Of a stretch of DNA of 64,000 bases, positions 1 through 10,626 are shown piece after piece (within the stretch, counting starts at the first letter, position 1; each line of letters begins with the position of its first letter). Location: assembly GCA_902576125.1 (NCBI GenBank), contig CACGUF010000006.1, positions 1 to 64,000 of the forward strand, written 5' to 3'. Source of the DNA: an uncultured Alphaproteobacteria bacterium (GTDB lineage Bacteria; Pseudomonadota; Alphaproteobacteria; HIMB59; GCA-002718135). The notes beneath the pieces are model-generated. The model was given only the letters and a program-made list of their open reading frames with translations, was not told the origin of the DNA and did not search any database. The position numbers were made by a program, and so were the translations under genes.

Positions 1-482
1 AAGGTGGAACTTTTGTTATGGTTCCTCCACCTAATCCATATAGATGTCCTCCTGGACCATATGAAAGAGTGTCTATGATCGCTCATCAATTTAAACAATC
101 TAATCCTTCAGGAAAAATTGTTATTTTAGATCCTAAACCTAAATTTTCTAAACAAGGTTTATTTGAGGCAGGATGGCAAAAACATTATCCTGGAATGATA
201 GAGTGGATTAGTTCAGAGGATCATGGTGGTCTTAAAAATGTTAATGCTTCTACAATGGAGTTTGAAACAGATTTAGATACATTTAAAGCTGACGCTGCAT
301 GTGTTGTTCCAGCTCAAAGAGCTGGTGCTATTGCAATGGCAGCAGGTGTTAACAATGGTGACTGGTGTCCTATTGTTCCTGCATCAATGCAATCTCAAGC
401 AGATGAAAATATTTATGTTTTAGGTGATGCATCTGTAGCTAAATCAATGCCTAAGTCAGGTTTTTCAGCCAAAATAATCTAA
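1..482 (+). pseudogene. fccB: Sulfide dehydrogenase flavoprotein (FccB/SoxF), fragment
   Basis: The reading frame is open from base 3, so the gene begins upstream of the window. The product is the C-terminal half of flavocytochrome c sulfide dehydrogenase, a periplasmic FAD protein that oxidises sulfide and passes electrons to a cytochrome c partner. Both redox-active cysteines of the family are visible: one in RCPPGPYER and one in GDWCP. The FAD-contacting VLGDAS and SGFSA segments follow. The family normally runs on for roughly 60-80 residues after SGFSAN; here it stops after SGFSAKII. The stop lies exactly where the convergent soxB fragment also ends, so the truncation is not a natural C-terminus. 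Family assignment is firm. Whether the break is biological or an artefact is open. Confidence 0.85.
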
Positions 483-743
483 AAAAACTTTTCCAACAAG
501 ATGAGGAGGAATGCCTTCGTATTTTCCAATACCAAAATTTTCTGATGGAGGCCTAAAAAAAACAGGTTTAAGTTGGCCATGTATATCAGTTATATGCAGT
601 AATGTAATTTGACCTTTTGAGTCAAATTTTAAAAGATCATTTTCAGAAATTTCTTGTTTTGCGGCAACGGCGCTCCAACTCTTGGAACCAATCAACATTG
701 CTGTAATTGTAGCTAATTGAAGAAATTCTCGCCTCGATTGCAT
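465..743 (-). pseudogene. soxB: Thiosulfohydrolase SoxB, N-terminal fragment
   Basis: Only the first 92 codons of SoxB, which is normally about 560 residues. SoxB is the periplasmic dimanganese enzyme that hydrolyses sulfate from the SoxY-bound sulfur chain. A Tat signal (SRREFLQ, residues 3-9) is followed by the 5'-nucleotidase-family start LLHITDIHGQL, which supplies the first metal ligands, and then by the SoxB-specific stretch GIPPHLVGKVFLDYFG. Homology runs right up to the last residue, then a TGA stop falls in sequence belonging to the facing fccB fragment. It lies 30 bp downstream of soxD in the same direction, which fits a soxYZCDB operon. It cannot be functional as it stands. Confidence 0.85.
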
Positions 744-773: not shown

Positions 774-1427
774 CTATTCGTCTTCTGGGGTTACATCAAT
801 ATCTCTAGCTTTTCCAATAATTTTTGTAGATACTTGACAATTACTCATGCAAGGGTTTCCGTGTGTATTTCTGATGTCTGGTCTTGGGTCAGGTAATAAA
901 AAACCATCTCTATTTGGCATCTCTATTTCACCAATATTTTTATCTGATAAAACAAAATCTTCTTCGATTATATCACCCATATATAGGAGATAGGCTACAA
1001 TTTCATAAGTTTCATCATAAGATAGTGATTGAGCTTCGCCATAGGGCATTGCTCTATAAATATAATCAAAGATTGTAGATGCATAGGGCCAGTAACTTGT
1101 AGCAGTTTTCTCTGGATCATGCGAAGCTAAACTACCTTCACCTCCAACGAGTGGAGGCCACCTATCTGCCCCTTCACCAAAATCACCATGGCATGCTGCA
1201 CATACTTCAGCATATATTTCTTCTCCAGAAAAAGCAGTTCCGCTTCCAATTGGTGCACCCAATCCATCAGGCCTTACATCAATATCCCATCCTGCAACTT
1301 CTTCTGAAGTAGCAATCTGCCCTAAATTGTATTTTCTATCATTAGCTGTAGTTGTATTTGCTAAAAATATTATTAATGAAAAGCTTAGTATGAAACTAAC
1401 CAAGCCTAACATTGTCAACCTTTCCAT
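774..1427 (-). CDS. soxD: Sulfur dehydrogenase cytochrome subunit SoxD (monohaem)
   Basis: Periplasmic c-type cytochrome of the SoxCD sulfur dehydrogenase, accepting electrons from the SoxC molybdenum centre during oxidation of SoxY-bound sulfane sulfur. After a hydrophobic signal segment (about residues 7-25) there is one haem site, CAACH (Cys76, Cys79, His80), with Met127 in RAMPYG the likely axial ligand. At 217 residues and one CxxCH it matches the short monohaem form rather than the two-haem Paracoccus type. The C-terminal part has two extra cysteines (PCMSNC) of unknown role. The first ATG overlaps soxC by 32 bp; Met6 (1412) is an alternative start that still leaves the signal peptide intact. 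Translational coupling to soxC is likely. Confidence 0.85.
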   Translation of the reverse strand: MERLTMLGLVSFILSFSLIIFLANTTTANDRKYNLGQIATSEEVAGWDIDVRPDGLGAPIGSGTAFSGEEIYAEVCAACHGDFGEGADRWPPLVGGEGSLASHDPEKTATSYWPYASTIFDYIYRAMPYGEAQSLSYDETYEIVAYLLYMGDIIEEDFVLSDKNIGEIEMPNRDGFLLPDPRPDIRNTHGNPCMSNCQVSTKIIGKARDIDVTPEDE

Positions 1428-2685
1428 TTTTAGAAACTAGCCAAGTTGCTATTGAGTTATTATGATAAATTGAATTCACACCTCTAATTTTTTGAAGTTC
1501 ACCAATAGTTGGTTGTACATAATTTGTCTCATCAATTGCTCTAGATTGTAATAGTAATTCCTCACCGTTCCATTCAAATGGAAAAGTAAATCTAGTTAAT
1601 GATTTACTTAGAACTGGTGAGTGAAGTTGAGCAGTTTTCCAATTCTTACCTCCATCAATTGAAACATCTACACGTTTAATTTTACCTCTACCGGACCACG
1701 CAAGACCTCTTAATTGATGCAATCCTTTTGCAAGTATTGGTTTTTCAGGACTTGGAGAAGTTATGACCGACTTAGCATCCATAACCCAGGTAAACATTCT
1801 AGCTTTTCCACTTGTTAACAGATCTGTATATTTAGAGGTTTCTTCTCTTGTCATGTAAGGTTTGTCACCAAACTCTAGTCTTCTTATCCATTTTACCCAC
1901 ATATTACCTTCCCAACCAGGAACTACAAGGCGCGCCGGATAACCTTGTTCAGGCCTTAATGCTTCTCCATTCATTGCCCATGCAATGATACAATCATCTA
2001 AAATTTTTTCTATAGGAATAGAACGTGTCATTCCTGATGAATCACTACCCTCAGCTAAAACCCACTTAGCTTTTTCTTTTAAACCTGTCTCTAAAAGAAG
2101 ATCTGATAATTTAACACCTGTGTATTGAACGTTATGAACCATTCCAAATGTATATTGGCAGCCATTCAATTGAGATCCTCTCCATTCCATACCACCATTT
2201 GCAGCACACTCAAGAAAGTAAAATTTATTTGTTTGAGGAAAGCGCTTTAAGTCATCAAGAGTAAATATCATTTCTCGATCTACCAAACCATTGATCATCA
2301 ATCTAAAGTCTTGTGGATTAATAACAGAAACACCTCCATGATGTCTTTCAAAACATAGTCCATTAGGTGTTACAATTCCTTCAAGATCTTGTAATGGGGT
2401 AAAATTTACTGAAGATTCAGCACTTGCTGTAAGCCACTCAACATTCCTTCTTATAACATGTCCCTCAAATTCTGAAGGCATACCGTAGGGATTTACATCA
2501 ACACCGTCACCAAGGTATTGTGTCCACTCCGGAAGGTTTGGTGGTAAGTTTTCAGGATTTACTTCTTCTGATAAAAGGTTTTTTGGAGCCAATGAAAAAG
2601 CTCCAATACTCGAAGCACCAATTAATAAGTCTCTACGATTAAGTTTTTTAAAGTTAGACAAATCATTTTTTTTATTTTTTTTCAC
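1396..2685 (-). CDS. soxC: Sulfur dehydrogenase molybdenum subunit SoxC
   Basis: Sulfite-oxidase-family molybdopterin protein that, with SoxD, performs the six-electron oxidation of SoxY-bound sulfur. The N-terminus has a twin-arginine signal (LNRRDLLIGASS, about 15-26). The oxidoreductase molybdopterin domain contains the molybdenum-ligating cysteine in FLECAANGGMEW (Cys160). A Mo-co dimerisation domain follows at about residues 300-420 (RGLAWSGRGKIKRVDVS). At 429 residues it is a normal length. soxZ ends just 2 bp upstream, and soxD begins inside its 3' end. Having SoxCD implies a full Sox pathway that oxidises thiosulfate to sulfate without storing sulfur globules, provided SoxAX and an intact SoxB are encoded elsewhere. 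Confidence 0.93.
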   Translation of the reverse strand: MKKNKKNDLSNFKKLNRRDLLIGASSIGAFSLAPKNLLSEEVNPENLPPNLPEWTQYLGDGVDVNPYGMPSEFEGHVIRRNVEWLTASAESSVNFTPLQDLEGIVTPNGLCFERHHGGVSVINPQDFRLMINGLVDREMIFTLDDLKRFPQTNKFYFLECAANGGMEWRGSQLNGCQYTFGMVHNVQYTGVKLSDLLLETGLKEKAKWVLAEGSDSSGMTRSIPIEKILDDCIIAWAMNGEALRPEQGYPARLVVPGWEGNMWVKWIRRLEFGDKPYMTREETSKYTDLLTSGKARMFTWVMDAKSVITSPSPEKPILAKGLHQLRGLAWSGRGKIKRVDVSIDGGKNWKTAQLHSPVLSKSLTRFTFPFEWNGEELLLQSRAIDETNYVQPTIGELQKIRGVNSIYHNNSIATWLVSKNGKVDNVRLG

Positions 2686-2687
2686 TA

Positions 2688-3014
2688 TTAAGAAACAATC
2701 ATTTCTTTTGAAATTGAATATATTTCCCCGTTATCGTCTATCCATTCAAAATCAAATTTACCACTTTCTTTGACTTTAAATTGAAAAACAATATATGGGT
2801 TAGTTGATATAGACGGCTCAAGATCCATTTGGAAAACCTCTTTTCCATTAAATTTAGCACTAAAAGAATTAATTATATGTCTTGGTATTGTTTGGCCATC
2901 AACATCTTTCATTCTACCACTATGCATAGGGTGTCTAATTAATGTTTTAATTTCAACAACCTCATCAACAGATACTTCCTTAGGTACTTTTACTCTTGGT
3001 TTAATTGAAGACAT
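2688..3014 (-). CDS. soxZ: Sulfur carrier complex subunit SoxZ
   Basis: SoxZ pairs with SoxY to form the carrier that holds thiosulfate-derived intermediates during oxidation. The 108-residue immunoglobulin-like protein shows the conserved stretch LIRHPMHSGRMKD near residue 27 and NPYIVFQFKV near residue 73. It has no signal peptide of its own, as usual, because it is carried across the membrane by Tat export with SoxY. The gene sits 14 bp after soxY and 2 bp before soxC, all on the minus strand, so the four genes almost certainly share one transcript. Confidence 0.93.
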   Translation of the reverse strand: MSSIKPRVKVPKEVSVDEVVEIKTLIRHPMHSGRMKDVDGQTIPRHIINSFSAKFNGKEVFQMDLEPSISTNPYIVFQFKVKESGKFDFEWIDDNGEIYSISKEMIVS

Positions 3015-3028
3015 AATTACTCCTTATA

Positions 3029-3493
3029 TTATCCGCCACATCCACCAATTGTGACTTTTACTTGCGCATTGGTCATGAAAAATTGACCACTATTATTTTC
3101 AGCTAATAAATAAACATTTTGTGTTTTTGATAATCGTATTCTTGTTGTTGCAGAACATGATCCCATTTCTGGTGTGAAAGAGAATTTCGCAACATTTGGT
3201 GAAGGGTTTCCGTCTGCCAAAATATGAACAGTTTTAATATGATCAGAATCAGTCATAGGGCTATCCATTTCAAAACTAACTTTTACCTGATTACCATTTT
3301 CTGCTATTTCTGGTAAGTCCAACCAAATATCACTTTCAGTTGCTCCCAATCCATTTGTAATTTCATTTATTCTATTTAAAGCTTGGTTAGATTGAGCAAA
3401 TGATATTGAAGGAAAAATTGCTGTCCCTGTAAAACCAGCAATAATTTGCAAAGCATTTCTTCTTGAAATTTTCCTTAATTTTTGTAACTTCAT
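3029..3493 (-). CDS. soxY: Sulfur carrier protein SoxY
   Basis: SoxY carries sulfur covalently on a cysteine at the end of a flexible C-terminal arm. The last five residues here are GGCGG with Cys152, the diagnostic swinging arm. The N-terminus has a Tat signal (KISRRNALQIIAGFTG, about 7-22) ending near SFAQ, so the SoxYZ dimer is exported folded. Length (154 residues) is normal for the family. A ribosome site (GAGGAA) lies 5 bp before the ATG. It leads the soxYZCD run and is separated by 79 AT-rich bases from the SoxS-like gene upstream, which is where a promoter or internal start could lie. Confidence 0.94.
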   Translation of the reverse strand: MKLQKLRKISRRNALQIIAGFTGTAIFPSISFAQSNQALNRINEITNGLGATESDIWLDLPEIAENGNQVKVSFEMDSPMTDSDHIKTVHILADGNPSPNVAKFSFTPEMGSCSATTRIRLSKTQNVYLLAENNSGQFFMTNAQVKVTIGGCGG

Positions 3494-3572: not shown

Positions 3573-3935
3573 TTATTCACGATCAAGAATTTCATCCACT
3601 TGCCACCAAAACATTTCTGCGCTTGAGTATCCTATAATTCGTCCAATTTCTTCTTTTTCCTTAAAAAAAACAAATGTTGGTGTAATTTTTGTTTCATTAT
3701 TGTCTGAGTCATCTCTTATTGAGTCTTCATCAAGCTCAATTCTTTCCAAAGGGAAACTTTTTGCAATATCAGTTTTAGGGTAAATTTCACCAATTTCTTT
3801 TTCCCAAATTTGACAGTAAATACAATAATCAGCAGTTATCATCAGAAGTTTATTTTCAGCAAAAGATGATTTTAATGATAATAAAAAAATAACTATTAAA
3901 AGCAATATAAAGTTGCACAACTTTTTAAACAGCAT
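3573..3935 (-). CDS. Periplasmic thioredoxin-like protein, SoxS type
   Basis: A 120-residue secreted thioredoxin-fold protein. An N-terminal hydrophobic signal (about residues 9-26, cut near SFAE) is followed by the redox pair CIYC (Cys38, Cys41), then WEKEIGEIYPKTDIAK and the cis-proline segment ITPTFVFF. The spacing of CxxC, W..EIG..YP.T and the downstream acidic stretch is what is seen in SoxS proteins encoded with sox operons. In Paracoccus, SoxS keeps SoxYZ active by thiol-disulfide exchange. Its place immediately before soxY in the same direction supports that role. A SoxW-type thioredoxin is the alternative. The thioredoxin call is firm; SoxS specificity is inferred from motif and context. 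Confidence 0.75.
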   Translation of the reverse strand: MLFKKLCNFILLLIVIFLLSLKSSFAENKLLMITADYCIYCQIWEKEIGEIYPKTDIAKSFPLERIELDEDSIRDDSDNNETKITPTFVFFKEKEEIGRIIGYSSAEMFWWQVDEILDRE

Positions 3936-3970: not shown

Positions 3971-4393
3971 TTAAAGCTCTTTTAGTAGCTCTTTAAATAT
4001 TTTTTTTGATTTACCCCCCAGCTTTACTTTTTTAATTTTATCTAAATTGCTTAGGTCATCCCCAACCACAACTAAACCTATCATGCCCATCGCTTTATGA
4101 GGAGTGCAAATATACAAGTATATTCCTGGAATTTCAAATTTATATTCTGCGTCTTTGTTTATTTTTGATTTGAATTTTTCAACTCCTTCAGGCATCTCTA
4201 CAAATTCAACATTATGCCCTTTGTCTACTGATTTCCATATAATGGTATCACCAATATCTATCTTTGCAACTTTTATAGAATAAACCATTTTTTCTTTTTC
4301 AAGTTTATTCAACATGTCTATTTCGATAGTTTCAGCATAGCTATAAAAAGATATTGAGATGTATGAAATAATTATAAAAAGATATTTAAACAT
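3971..4393 (-). CDS. Pseudoazurin-type blue copper protein
   Basis: Small periplasmic cupredoxin that shuttles single electrons. The type 1 copper ligands are all present in pseudoazurin spacing: His60 (KGHNVEF), Cys96 and His99 (CTPHK) and Met104 (AMGM, eight residues after the Cys). A signal peptide covers residues 1-20 (to SYAE). I chose the ATG at 4393 because an AAAGGA ribosome site sits just before it. An upstream ATG at 4456 in the same frame would put 21 unrelated residues before the signal. The tail (residues 110-140) is lysine-rich. It is first in the minus-strand sox run, so it may take electrons from SoxCD or SoxAX toward the terminal oxidase; that role is inferred from position. 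Confidence 0.88.
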   Translation of the reverse strand: MFKYLFIIISYISISFYSYAETIEIDMLNKLEKEKMVYSIKVAKIDIGDTIIWKSVDKGHNVEFVEMPEGVEKFKSKINKDAEYKFEIPGIYLYICTPHKAMGMIGLVVVGDDLSNLDKIKKVKLGGKSKKIFKELLKEL

Positions 4394-4581
4394 TTTGAAT
4401 CCTTTAATTTCCCTATTTTTAATACAACTAAAGATTAAACTAATAATAACATACACATAGGGTTTATTCTACTAACTTTTTAAGTGTTATGATAAAAGAG
4501 ATTTTAGTTTGCAGTACTCATGTGATACTCAAGTTTATTTAGTAATTCTACTAAGTAAAAAAAAGTAAGGAAAACTAAGAA

Positions 4582-4658
4582 GCGCCCGTAGCTCAATTGG
4601 ATAGAGCGCCAGACTACGGATCTGGAGGTTAGGAGTTCGACTCTTCTCGGGCGCGCCA
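4582..4658 (+). tRNA. tRNA-Arg (anticodon ACG)
   Basis: A 77-base tRNA. The acceptor stem GCGCCCG pairs with CGGGCGC, discriminator G is followed by an encoded CCA, and the anticodon stem CCAGA/TCTGG encloses loop CTACGGA, giving anticodon ACG (first base presumably read as inosine, decoding CGN). The D-loop (GCTCAATTGGATAGAGC) and T-arm (GGAGTTCGACTC) are intact. Bases 4607-4658 are repeated almost exactly at 5693-5744, marking this gene as an integration target. Confidence 0.96.
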
Positions 4659-4697: not shown

Positions 4698-5629
4698 GTA
4701 AAAAAAGTTGGTCGTTTGTTGACTTTCATATTCAGAAATACCGATTTGCATTCAACATTCCTCTTAGAAGAATTATTTTATTTTTTTATTAAAAACCACA
4801 GGCATTTTGCCTTTCCACTGAATCCAAAGATTAGGTTGTTCAATGCACTCACACATAAAATGAGCGACGTTTGCTCGCGTAGTAGTAAGTCCATTAAAAA
4901 TAGTTTGAGGAGGTGTCGCTACTACTTCATAGTTCGAAATTTCAGCATTAATGAGTCCGTCTGGTCGGACCACTACCCATTCAATAAATTCATTTTCTGA
5001 ACCAATGTTATCTCTCAAAAAAGCAGCGGAGGCTTCATTATCATAATGTGGTGGTATGAGGTTGCGTAACAGAGATAAAATAACTTTTTCGCTCGTGGTT
5101 ACTCTCTCACCAGGATTGCGATTACCTACGGTGTTCATTAATAAAAATTTTGTTTTATCTAGAGAATGAGTAGCCTTAATAGCTACACATAGACGTTTGA
5201 CTGCTTCCAGAACAAGCGTTCTGGGTTTGCCAAATATTCCTTTAAAACTCATTGTGTGACCTAAGCAGGAAGCCACAGCAGCACAACCTTTTACGGCTTC
5301 CAACATTTGTTCGTCACTCAGATCAAGCAAACTTGCTTTTATGATTTTGAGTTTTGGATTTTCTAGAATTTCTTGTGGAAATTTATCCAGTGACCGAACA
5401 ATAATTCGAAGGTTATAGCCGCGGACAAGAAGCTGTTTTACAAGAGGGAAACCAGTATTTCCTGTGGCTCCAACCACTAAAACTGTTTTAGAATTTGAAT
5501 TGGTTTTTTCGGTTGTCATTTACCGGGCATATAGACTAACTTAATTTTCACTTCAACCAATTACCACTAAATTAGTTTCAAAGTTAAAGGTAAAATAAAG
5601 TTGGCCGTTTGATTCCCTTCGCATTCAAA
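4698..5629. repeat. Pair of diverged ~40-bp repeats flanking the SDR gene
   Basis: The segment at 4698-4736 and the one at 5590-5629 share the core GTTGG(T/C)CGTTTG followed by a loosely matching tail ending CATTCA-type sequence, at roughly 70% identity by eye with one small indel. They lie in the same orientation just outside each end of the SDR gene, inside the tRNA-derived repeats. They may be arms of an older, shorter insertion or recombinase-binding sites next to the attachment cores. The similarity was judged by eye and could be partly base-composition driven. Confidence 0.4.
4773..5519 (-). CDS. NAD(P)H-binding protein, atypical SDR family
   Basis: A 248-residue Rossmann-fold protein. 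The nucleotide-binding loop is near the start (VLVVGATGNTGFPL, residues 13-26) with a basic residue pattern after strand 2 (IIVRS) suggesting NADP(H). The classical SDR YxxxK pair is not evident where expected, so it fits the NmrA/atypical-SDR group whose members may be reductases, epimerases or non-catalytic redox sensors. The substrate is unknown. It lies between the intact tRNA-Arg and the tRNA 3' copy, transcribed opposite to the tRNA. Three of its 60-base stretches counted by hand are about 33-43% G+C, against roughly 23% in one stretch of the next gene, so it looks acquired. No integrase accompanies it. Confidence 0.8.
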   Translation of the reverse strand: MTTEKTNSNSKTVLVVGATGNTGFPLVKQLLVRGYNLRIIVRSLDKFPQEILENPKLKIIKASLLDLSDEQMLEAVKGCAAVASCLGHTMSFKGIFGKPRTLVLEAVKRLCVAIKATHSLDKTKFLLMNTVGNRNPGERVTTSEKVILSLLRNLIPPHYDNEASAAFLRDNIGSENEFIEWVVVRPDGLINAEISNYEVVATPPQTIFNGLTTTRANVAHFMCECIEQPNLWIQWKGKMPVVFNKKIK

Positions 5630-5692
5630 AACTGCAATTCTTCATTTTAAATTTCTTGCAATTCCTCACTTTTATTTCTTCCATGGATCTTT

Positions 5693-5744
5693 CGCCAGAC
5701 TACGGATCTGGAGGTTAGGAGTTCGACTCTTTTTGGGTGCGCCA
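5693..5744 (+). repeat. tRNA-Arg 3' fragment (candidate attachment-site duplicate)
   Basis: This 52-bp segment matches bases 26-77 of tRNA-Arg (4607-4658) without gaps at 49 of 52 positions; all three differences are C in the tRNA and T here. It covers the anticodon arm, variable loop, T-arm, 3' acceptor strand and CCA, but no D-arm or 5' acceptor strand precedes it, so it is not a working tRNA. Such a direct repeat is what site-specific integration into a tRNA 3' end leaves behind. The bases from 5520 to here hold the diverged repeat above and otherwise no recognisable feature, and those from 5745 to 5807 show none. Confidence 0.85.
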
Positions 5745-8345: not shown

Positions 8346-10028
<1,683 letters not shown>

Positions 10029-10050
10029 TTTGAAGTTAATTTATTTTTTT

Positions 10051-10075
10051 AAAGCCCCCTTTAGGGGGCTTTTTT
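10051..10075 (+). terminator. Rho-independent terminator after groEL
   Basis: AAAGCCCCC, three-base loop TTA (flanked by a closing T/G step) and GGGGGCTTTTTT form a very stable hairpin with a T run, 22 bp after the groEL stop. The A run on the other side means it may also terminate the convergent gpx transcript. Confidence 0.93.
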
Positions 10076-10077
10076 AT

Positions 10078-10626
10078 TTATAAAACTTTATTAATTTCTC
10101 TCAAAATTTTAGAATGATCTGGTTTTGTCATTGAAGACCATGAAGAAGTTAAAGCTCCCGATCTATCAAATAAATATTTATAAAAATTCCATTTTGGAGT
10201 TTTTCCATAATCTTCTTTTAACCAATTAAATATATCATGAGAACTACTTCCTCTGACGTTTATTGGTGACGAGGTAATAAATCCTACATCATAATTAATT
10301 AAGCATATCTTTTTAATATCTTCGTTTGAAGAATATTCTTGATTAAATGAATTACTTGTTACTGCTAAAATTGTTAAATCAGTATCTTTAAAATTAATAA
10401 AAAGATTTTGAAGATTTGCATATTGAGGGGTGTAACCACACCTAGATGCAGTATTTACCATAAATATTGGCTTACCTCTAAATTTCTCAAGGTTTACATG
10501 GTTACCGTCAATATCTTCAAAAGAAAAATCGTAAATTGTCATATTTTTTGTATTTCCTGTGCTAACATAAAAAAACATTAGTAAAAAAGTAATTAATCTA
10601 ATGATTTTCGTGGTAATATTAATCAT
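10078..10626 (-). CDS. Glutathione peroxidase family protein (exported)
   Basis: Thiol peroxidase of the GPx family, 182 residues. The catalytic cysteine (in place of selenocysteine) is Cys63 in NTASRCGYTPQY. The second family motif appears as TSNSFNQEYSS near residue 100 and the third as WNFYKYLFDRSG near 150. A hydrophobic segment at 8-24 looks like a signal peptide, so the enzyme likely reduces peroxides in the periplasm, probably with thioredoxin rather than glutathione as reductant. Second-helix resolving cysteine usage is unclear. It converges on groEL and diverges from mscS. Confidence 0.88.
   Translation of the reverse strand: MINITTKIIRLITFLLMFFYVSTGNTKNMTIYDFSFEDIDGNHVNLEKFRGKPIFMVNTASRCGYTPQYANLQNLFINFKDTDLTILAVTSNSFNQEYSSNEDIKKICLINYDVGFITSSPINVRGSSSHDIFNWLKEDYGKTPKWNFYKYLFDRSGALTSSWSSMTKPDHSKILREINKVL

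Follow-up and report, generated by a model that had tools for sequence, protein, structure and literature searches.

Chimeras that arise during whole-genome amplification of the multiple displacement (MDA) type join separate stretches of template at a few complementary bases, and their structure has been described in several data sets. In the join analysis of Lasken and Stockwell (2007), the complementarity at the joins is given as 2–21 nt, and of 475 chimeras from single-cell E. coli MDA 406 are inverted and 69 direct, with 11 of the 69 direct ones joining segments less than 10 kb apart (PMC1855051). Among joins of less than 10 kb, the same tabulation finds complementarity in 93.5% of the inverted and 90.9% of the direct chimeras (PMC1855051). 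Overlap lengths, measured on inverted chimeras, are stated to peak at 6 nt (PMC4595205), and the counts listed for the data set MDA1 are 585,997 direct versus 6,363,739 inverted chimeras, the direct kind making up about 8% of both (PMC6515389). For the GORG-Tropics single-cell workflow, tests with benchmark cultures gave 1.5 misassemblies per 100 kb (PMC11247762). The direct chimera is thus the rarer kind, yet misassemblies as such are expected at this rate.

The DNA analysed here, the window, comprises the first 64,000 bases of contig C6 of assembly G000 (GCA_902576125.1, contig CACGUF010000006.1), from an uncultured alphaproteobacterium of the HIMB59 lineage, and its base 1 is the first base of the contig. 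The assembly consists of 37 contigs and 1,255,047 bases, is 72% complete and presumably represents an amplified single cell. The left-hand end of the window carries a sox–fcc gene cassette, for which relatives were collected in two ways. A DNA search of 61 genomes matched the region in G019, G034 and G031, in each as two blocks on the same strand and 1.7 kb apart, corresponding to window bases 1–472 and 468 to about 1400; the sole further match outside the window's own genome is about 31 bp long, in G009. A degenerate SoxB pattern, searched in named genomes, retrieved nine contigs from nine isolates (AG-447-A02, AG-447-O15, AG-447-I04, AG-447-L18, AG-447-P14, AG-447-J18, AG-426-I04, AG-404-D18 and AG-457-I08), among which G019, G034 and G031 are already counted, and had no match in the viral contigs. 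The first three of these isolates were analysed on longer loci (L010, L011 and L012, respectively). All nine bear names of the AG-xxx form, which denotes single amplified genomes (SAGs) where it is used in PMC12416821, and the record titles of four of the nine start with 'MAG:'.

In AG-457-I08, AG-447-A02 and the seven other relatives the cassette is intact and has the common order fccB > < soxB < soxD < soxC, with soxZ and soxY behind soxC wherever the locus reaches, as in the window. DNA identity between these cassettes and that of the window is about 92–97%. In AG-457-I08 the tRNA-Arg lies on the same side as in the window, but with extra genes in between. What sets the window apart is a stretch of 1.73 kb, which the cassettes of the relatives retain and the window lacks. 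The features at this end of the window are as follows.

1–472, plus strand: fragment of fccB (flavocytochrome c sulfide dehydrogenase flavoprotein), PF21706, 94–97% identity to the nine relatives
465–743, minus strand: fragment of soxB, first ~90 of 561 residues, positions 1–88 of 556 of TIGR04486, 92–96% DNA identity to the nine relatives
468–472, no strand: join with 5-bp microhomology GCCAA (2 bp if the cell's allele was GCAAA), where the blocks 1–472 and 468 onward overlap in relatives
774–1427, minus strand: soxD (cytochrome c subunit of sulfane dehydrogenase), open, PF13442/PF00034, conserved in relatives
1396–2685, minus strand: soxC, intact, TIGR04555 622.6 bits (cut-off 420)
2688–3014, minus strand: soxZ, intact, TIGR04490 106.5 bits (cut-off 76)
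3029–3493, minus strand: soxY, intact, TIGR04488 131 bits (cut-off 125)
3573–3935, minus strand: thioredoxin-like protein of the cassette, PF13098 29.9 bits (cut-off 27)
3971–4456, minus strand: pseudoazurin-like copper protein, PF00127, TIGR02375 107.5 bits, just under the cut-off of 109.85
4582–4658, plus strand: tRNA-Arg(ACG), adjoining the cassette

The name soxD rests on position beside soxC and on sequence, as does that of fccA in the relatives, whose product has no Pfam match. Cassette homology with G019 and G034 ends at 4456, which marks the right-hand end. Further to the right the contig is collinear with G061:C1 over 7101–66271, in one block, and with G019:C7 over 5693–47630, whereas the stretch with the tRNA, between 4456 and about 5700, is variable; the only inverted repeats inside the contig are 18–33 bp long. 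A shorter loss is seen within the cassette of AG-447-O15 (L011 ~9963–10118), where the thioredoxin-like gene aligns over only 52 of 120 residues and the stretch matching window bases 3618–3783 is missing, well inside a 240-kb contig.

Both genes at the left-hand end are incomplete. The FccB-type open frame (3–482, plus strand) is the middle of the protein, approximately residues 176–331 of 421 in the coordinates of L010; its score for the central domain FCSD_central (PF21706), 137.5 bits, is above the cut-off of 27, although the N-terminal part lies beyond the contig end and the C-terminal ~90 amino acids are removed by the join. The SoxB frame scores 86 bits against a full-length TIGR04486 cut-off of 550, the stop codon that ends it arises at the join, and no second TIGR04486 match is found in the assembly. 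Homology switches at 468–472, with 1–472 and 468 onward aligning separately to three relatives; the initial annotation was thus right that fccB and soxB lose their 3′ ends at one microhomology. It had also taken the facing orientation of the two truncated genes as the mark of an inverted template-switch join or of an inversion or deletion. In all nine relatives, however, fccB is open for 421–422 residues and soxB for 561, and the two are adjacent and already convergent, an order that the join did not produce. Measured against the nine, 1,729–1,732 bp between the two genes are absent from the window, both flanks of which keep the native orientation and order on one strand. As the genes face each other in every relative and the flanks keep their orientation, the join is a same-strand deletion of 1.73 kb relative to the relatives and not an inversion. 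The truncated pair, whose presence in related genomes the initial annotation had named as a refutation of its reading, occurs in none of the nine.

The sequence shared at the join is shorter than the six bases, GCCAAA at 468–473, first proposed: a microhomology is present, comprising the five bases GCCAA, and FccB continues as GCCAAC in the four relatives with this allele. The length depends on the allele that the cell carried on the FccB side, which is GCCAA in four of the nine relatives, with five bases shared with the SoxB side, and GCAAA in the other five, with two (lengths were computed on five of the nine loci, L062, L063, L058, L010 and L061). Among random pairs of points in fccB and soxB of L063, at least five shared bases are found in 0.7% and at least two in 18%, so that microhomology guided the join if the allele of the cell was GCCAA, whereas with GCAAA the join is unremarkable.

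The two remnants are well preserved. Compared with each of the nine relatives, the fccB remnant has 8–20 synonymous and 1–13 nonsynonymous changes and the soxB remnant 9–18 synonymous and about 2–5 nonsynonymous ones, pN/pS is 0.02–0.26, and the remnants contain no internal stop codons before the join. Changes private to the window, counted per codon against L010, amount to five synonymous and three nonsynonymous (eight of the nine relatives were used, with L057 left out and L010 entered twice); at least five synonymous changes out of eight have P 0.015 under neutrality, and the changes are too few for dating the event. By these substitution patterns, purifying selection acted on the two genes during most of their time in this lineage, as would be expected with an artefact or a recent deletion but not with a long-standing pair of pseudogenes. 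Decay of the latter kind was looked for among the private changes and is not seen.

In our judgement, which is not a computed value, the join is probably an artefact of the whole-genome amplification (MDA type) of this cell's DNA, in direct orientation. The initial annotation had proposed an inverted template switch, typical of amplified single cells, or an inversion or deletion; an amplification artefact is still the likeliest origin, whereas the inversion is contradicted by the native orientation of both segments in all nine relatives. In the model that we favour, a displaced 3′ end copied from fccB would anneal at GCCAA (or GC) in soxB, on the same strand at a distance of 1.73 kb, and its extension would give a direct-orientation chimera with the intervening DNA deleted. 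With this side of the region otherwise unrecovered, the chimeric molecule alone would be left to assemble and would form the last 472 bp of the contig. The annealing step and the origin of the genome from an amplified single cell are the parts of the model that we infer. The structure expected from it is that of the direct chimeras of Lasken and Stockwell, in which two segments of one strand, less than 10 kb apart, are likewise joined through a few complementary bases and the DNA between them is lost (as characterised in PMC1855051). The window join lies on one strand throughout, with 5 or 2 complementary bases depending on the allele, within the range of 2–21 nt. It is located at the edge of recovered sequence and is seen in an assembled contig and not in raw reads, and the direct class is rare among MDA chimeras (PMC1855051). 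Inverted chimeras in that collection also show microhomology and distances of less than 10 kb, but their second segment is inverted, which that of the window is not (PMC1855051).

This reading draws on the position at the contig end, the absence of any other trace of the region, chimera-like ends elsewhere in the assembly, the absence of the join from nine relatives and the lack of decay. The join is located 472 bp from the contig end, and a random point comes this close to any of the 74 contig ends in 2.8% of cases. A search of the rest of the assembly recovers no copy of the missing 1.73 kb, of the start of fccB, of fccA or of the M24-peptidase gene upstream; the sole other match to the missing or upstream DNA is 29 bp on C8. 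Apart from this one short match, neither soxB nor the missing DNA is found a second time in the assembly.

The other contig ends serve as an internal control. We compared 68 contig-end stretches, 64 of them true ends among the 74 (for C22, C23, C24 and C30 the stretch taken on the right is not the true end, and C35–C37 were left out), with partial references from five relatives, namely G062:C1, G066:C5 and G019:C7 as a whole and parts of G061:C1, G034:C1 and G019:C2. For 17 of the 68 stretches, including the one studied here, a match to a reference begins no more than 150 bp from the end, and two of the 16 other testable ends have an inverted join near the end. On the right of C14 (L157), the join lies ~433 bp from the end and fuses, in frame, an enoyl-ACP-reductase-like protein to a pyridoxamine-oxidase-like one; in G061 and G062 the gene for the latter is on the opposite strand. 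On the left of C20 (L130), the join lies ~607–643 bp from the end and affects a pair of ATP-synthase b-type genes, one of which has been flipped relative to its neighbour; the flip is seen against G019 and G066, and G062 agrees. The break in the enoyl reductase need not be lethal, since G062 has a second reductase, 54% identical. A living cell with both the C14 and the C20 join is unlikely, so chimeras from amplification are probably present at contig ends of this assembly. When the break near the left-hand end of C8 is included, three of four local joins are found no more than 650 bp from an end (P 0.015), and two of three when the join studied here is left out (P 0.07), with the breaks of C5/C7 and C10 outside this calculation. 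A probable terminal chimera is also present in the public record of AG-457-I08, in which the last 853 bp of G066:C5 (58191–59043; L098) have the opposite orientation to the window, G061 and G019, while its sox genes are intact and on the same side of the tRNA-Arg.

Three further breaks near contig ends were left out of the chimera count. The one at ~2,781 bp from the left-hand end of C8 has the same orientation and a distance of 4.2 kb in both G034 and G019, and the right-hand break of C5 and the left-hand break of C7 are 242 kb apart in G062 and mirrored on both contigs; we read these as real differences in gene content or order. At the left-hand end of C10 there are two weak matches (65–67%), neither of which begins at the end itself; in G062 they are oppositely oriented and separated by about 4 kb.

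Several observations count against the amplification artefact: direct chimeras are the rare class, the other terminal joins seen here are inverted and the one under study is direct, the microhomology is only 2 bp if the cell had the allele of five of the nine relatives, real short deletions do occur in the cassette, as in AG-447-O15, the private changes are too few for dating, and four of the relatives have 'MAG:' titles. The main rival is a real and young chromosomal deletion of 1.73 kb, by short-homology recombination or replication slippage, with loss of the FccB C-terminus and most of SoxB; again by judgement and not by computation, we consider it unlikely. The orientation and order are those of a simple deletion, possibly with a 5-bp direct repeat at its ends, the direct orientation is rare among MDA chimeras, and a truncating deletion in the thioredoxin-like gene of AG-447-O15 offers a precedent. 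The cassette also seems dispensable, as soxC exceeds its cut-off in only four of the 61 (mostly incomplete) genomes. Such a deletion would have to be recent, because the frames of both remnants and of the other cassette genes are still open and conserved, and it is shared by none of the nine relatives; the 2.8% chance of its distance from the contig end and the chimera-like terminal joins elsewhere in the same assembly weigh against it as well. That an inverted template switch or an inversion made the join is barely credible, for the two truncated genes do face each other but do so equally in nine of nine relatives, and the collinear orientation of both flanks, which match the same strand in native order, rules out an inversion. 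An assembler joining two unconnected contigs at a short repeat is just as improbable despite the location at a contig end, as assembler k-mers are far longer than the 2–5 shared bases, and there is no run of N at the junction; the library must have contained a molecule with this join.

If the join is taken at face value, gene-content tables would score this cell as SoxB-negative and SoxCD/YZ-positive, possibly giving rise to a story of partial sulfur oxidation. In assemblies of this kind, a comparison with relatives should precede any biological reading of a breakpoint that falls within about 1 kb of a contig end. The initial annotation had added that a true rearrangement would disable thiosulfate oxidation at SoxB, which needs care. 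Among the ten cassette-bearing genomes (G000, G019, G031, G034 and G061–G066, the four with stated completeness being 68–84% complete), SoxA is detected in none, with two SoxA-positive genomes matching as a control, and SoxX is detected in none, with a control that matches only below the cut-off. SoxAX is the enzyme that loads thiosulfate onto SoxY. Given that neither soxA nor soxX is detected in these incomplete genomes, the cassette, even when intact, may not function as the usual thiosulfate pathway.

The cassette is far closer between species than its surroundings are. Over its 6–7 frames pS is 0.17–0.22 (the fccB fragment being counted in two overlapping frames), versus 0.53–0.61 for the other matched frames of the contig, of which there are 36 in G019, 53 in G061 and seven in G066. 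Its chromosomal sites differ. It lies to the left of tRNA-Arg(ACG) in the window and in AG-457-I08, the same tRNA is located at the fccA end of the cassette in G031, and in AG-447-P14 a second kind, tRNA-Arg(CCT), is found just outside the fccA end (L059 3511–3587), while in G019, G034, AG-447-L18 and AG-447-J18 the cassette stands behind sarcosine-oxidase-alpha-like and M24-peptidase-like genes. Judged by the low pS and the different sites, the sox–fcc cassette has been transferred laterally among species, including at least three from the genus of the window. In the literature on AEGEAN-169/HIMB59, on SAGs and on GCA-002718135, subscription papers aside, we found no report of an exchanged sox–fcc cassette that lacks SoxAX, and a word search of the searchable portions of PMC10308909, PMC12416821 and PMC10734472 found no mention of the cassette. 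In our view, this exchanged cassette without detectable soxAX is the more interesting biology of the locus. Were the join real, which we doubt, an ocean cell would just have lost SoxB and a functional FccB from such a cassette with soxCDYZ intact; a mobile energy-gaining cassette would have been caught at the first step of its loss, which would imply a use for SoxCD–SoxYZ without SoxB.

The tRNA-Arg(ACG) beside the cassette has a partial duplicate. A copy of its 3′ part lies 1.09 kb downstream, at 5684–5744 (89% over 61 bp), a duplication that resembles those of attachment sites; a NAD(P)H-binding/epimerase-like frame (4773–5519) is located between the two, and several more copies of the tRNA 3′ end are found in G005 and AG-457-I08.
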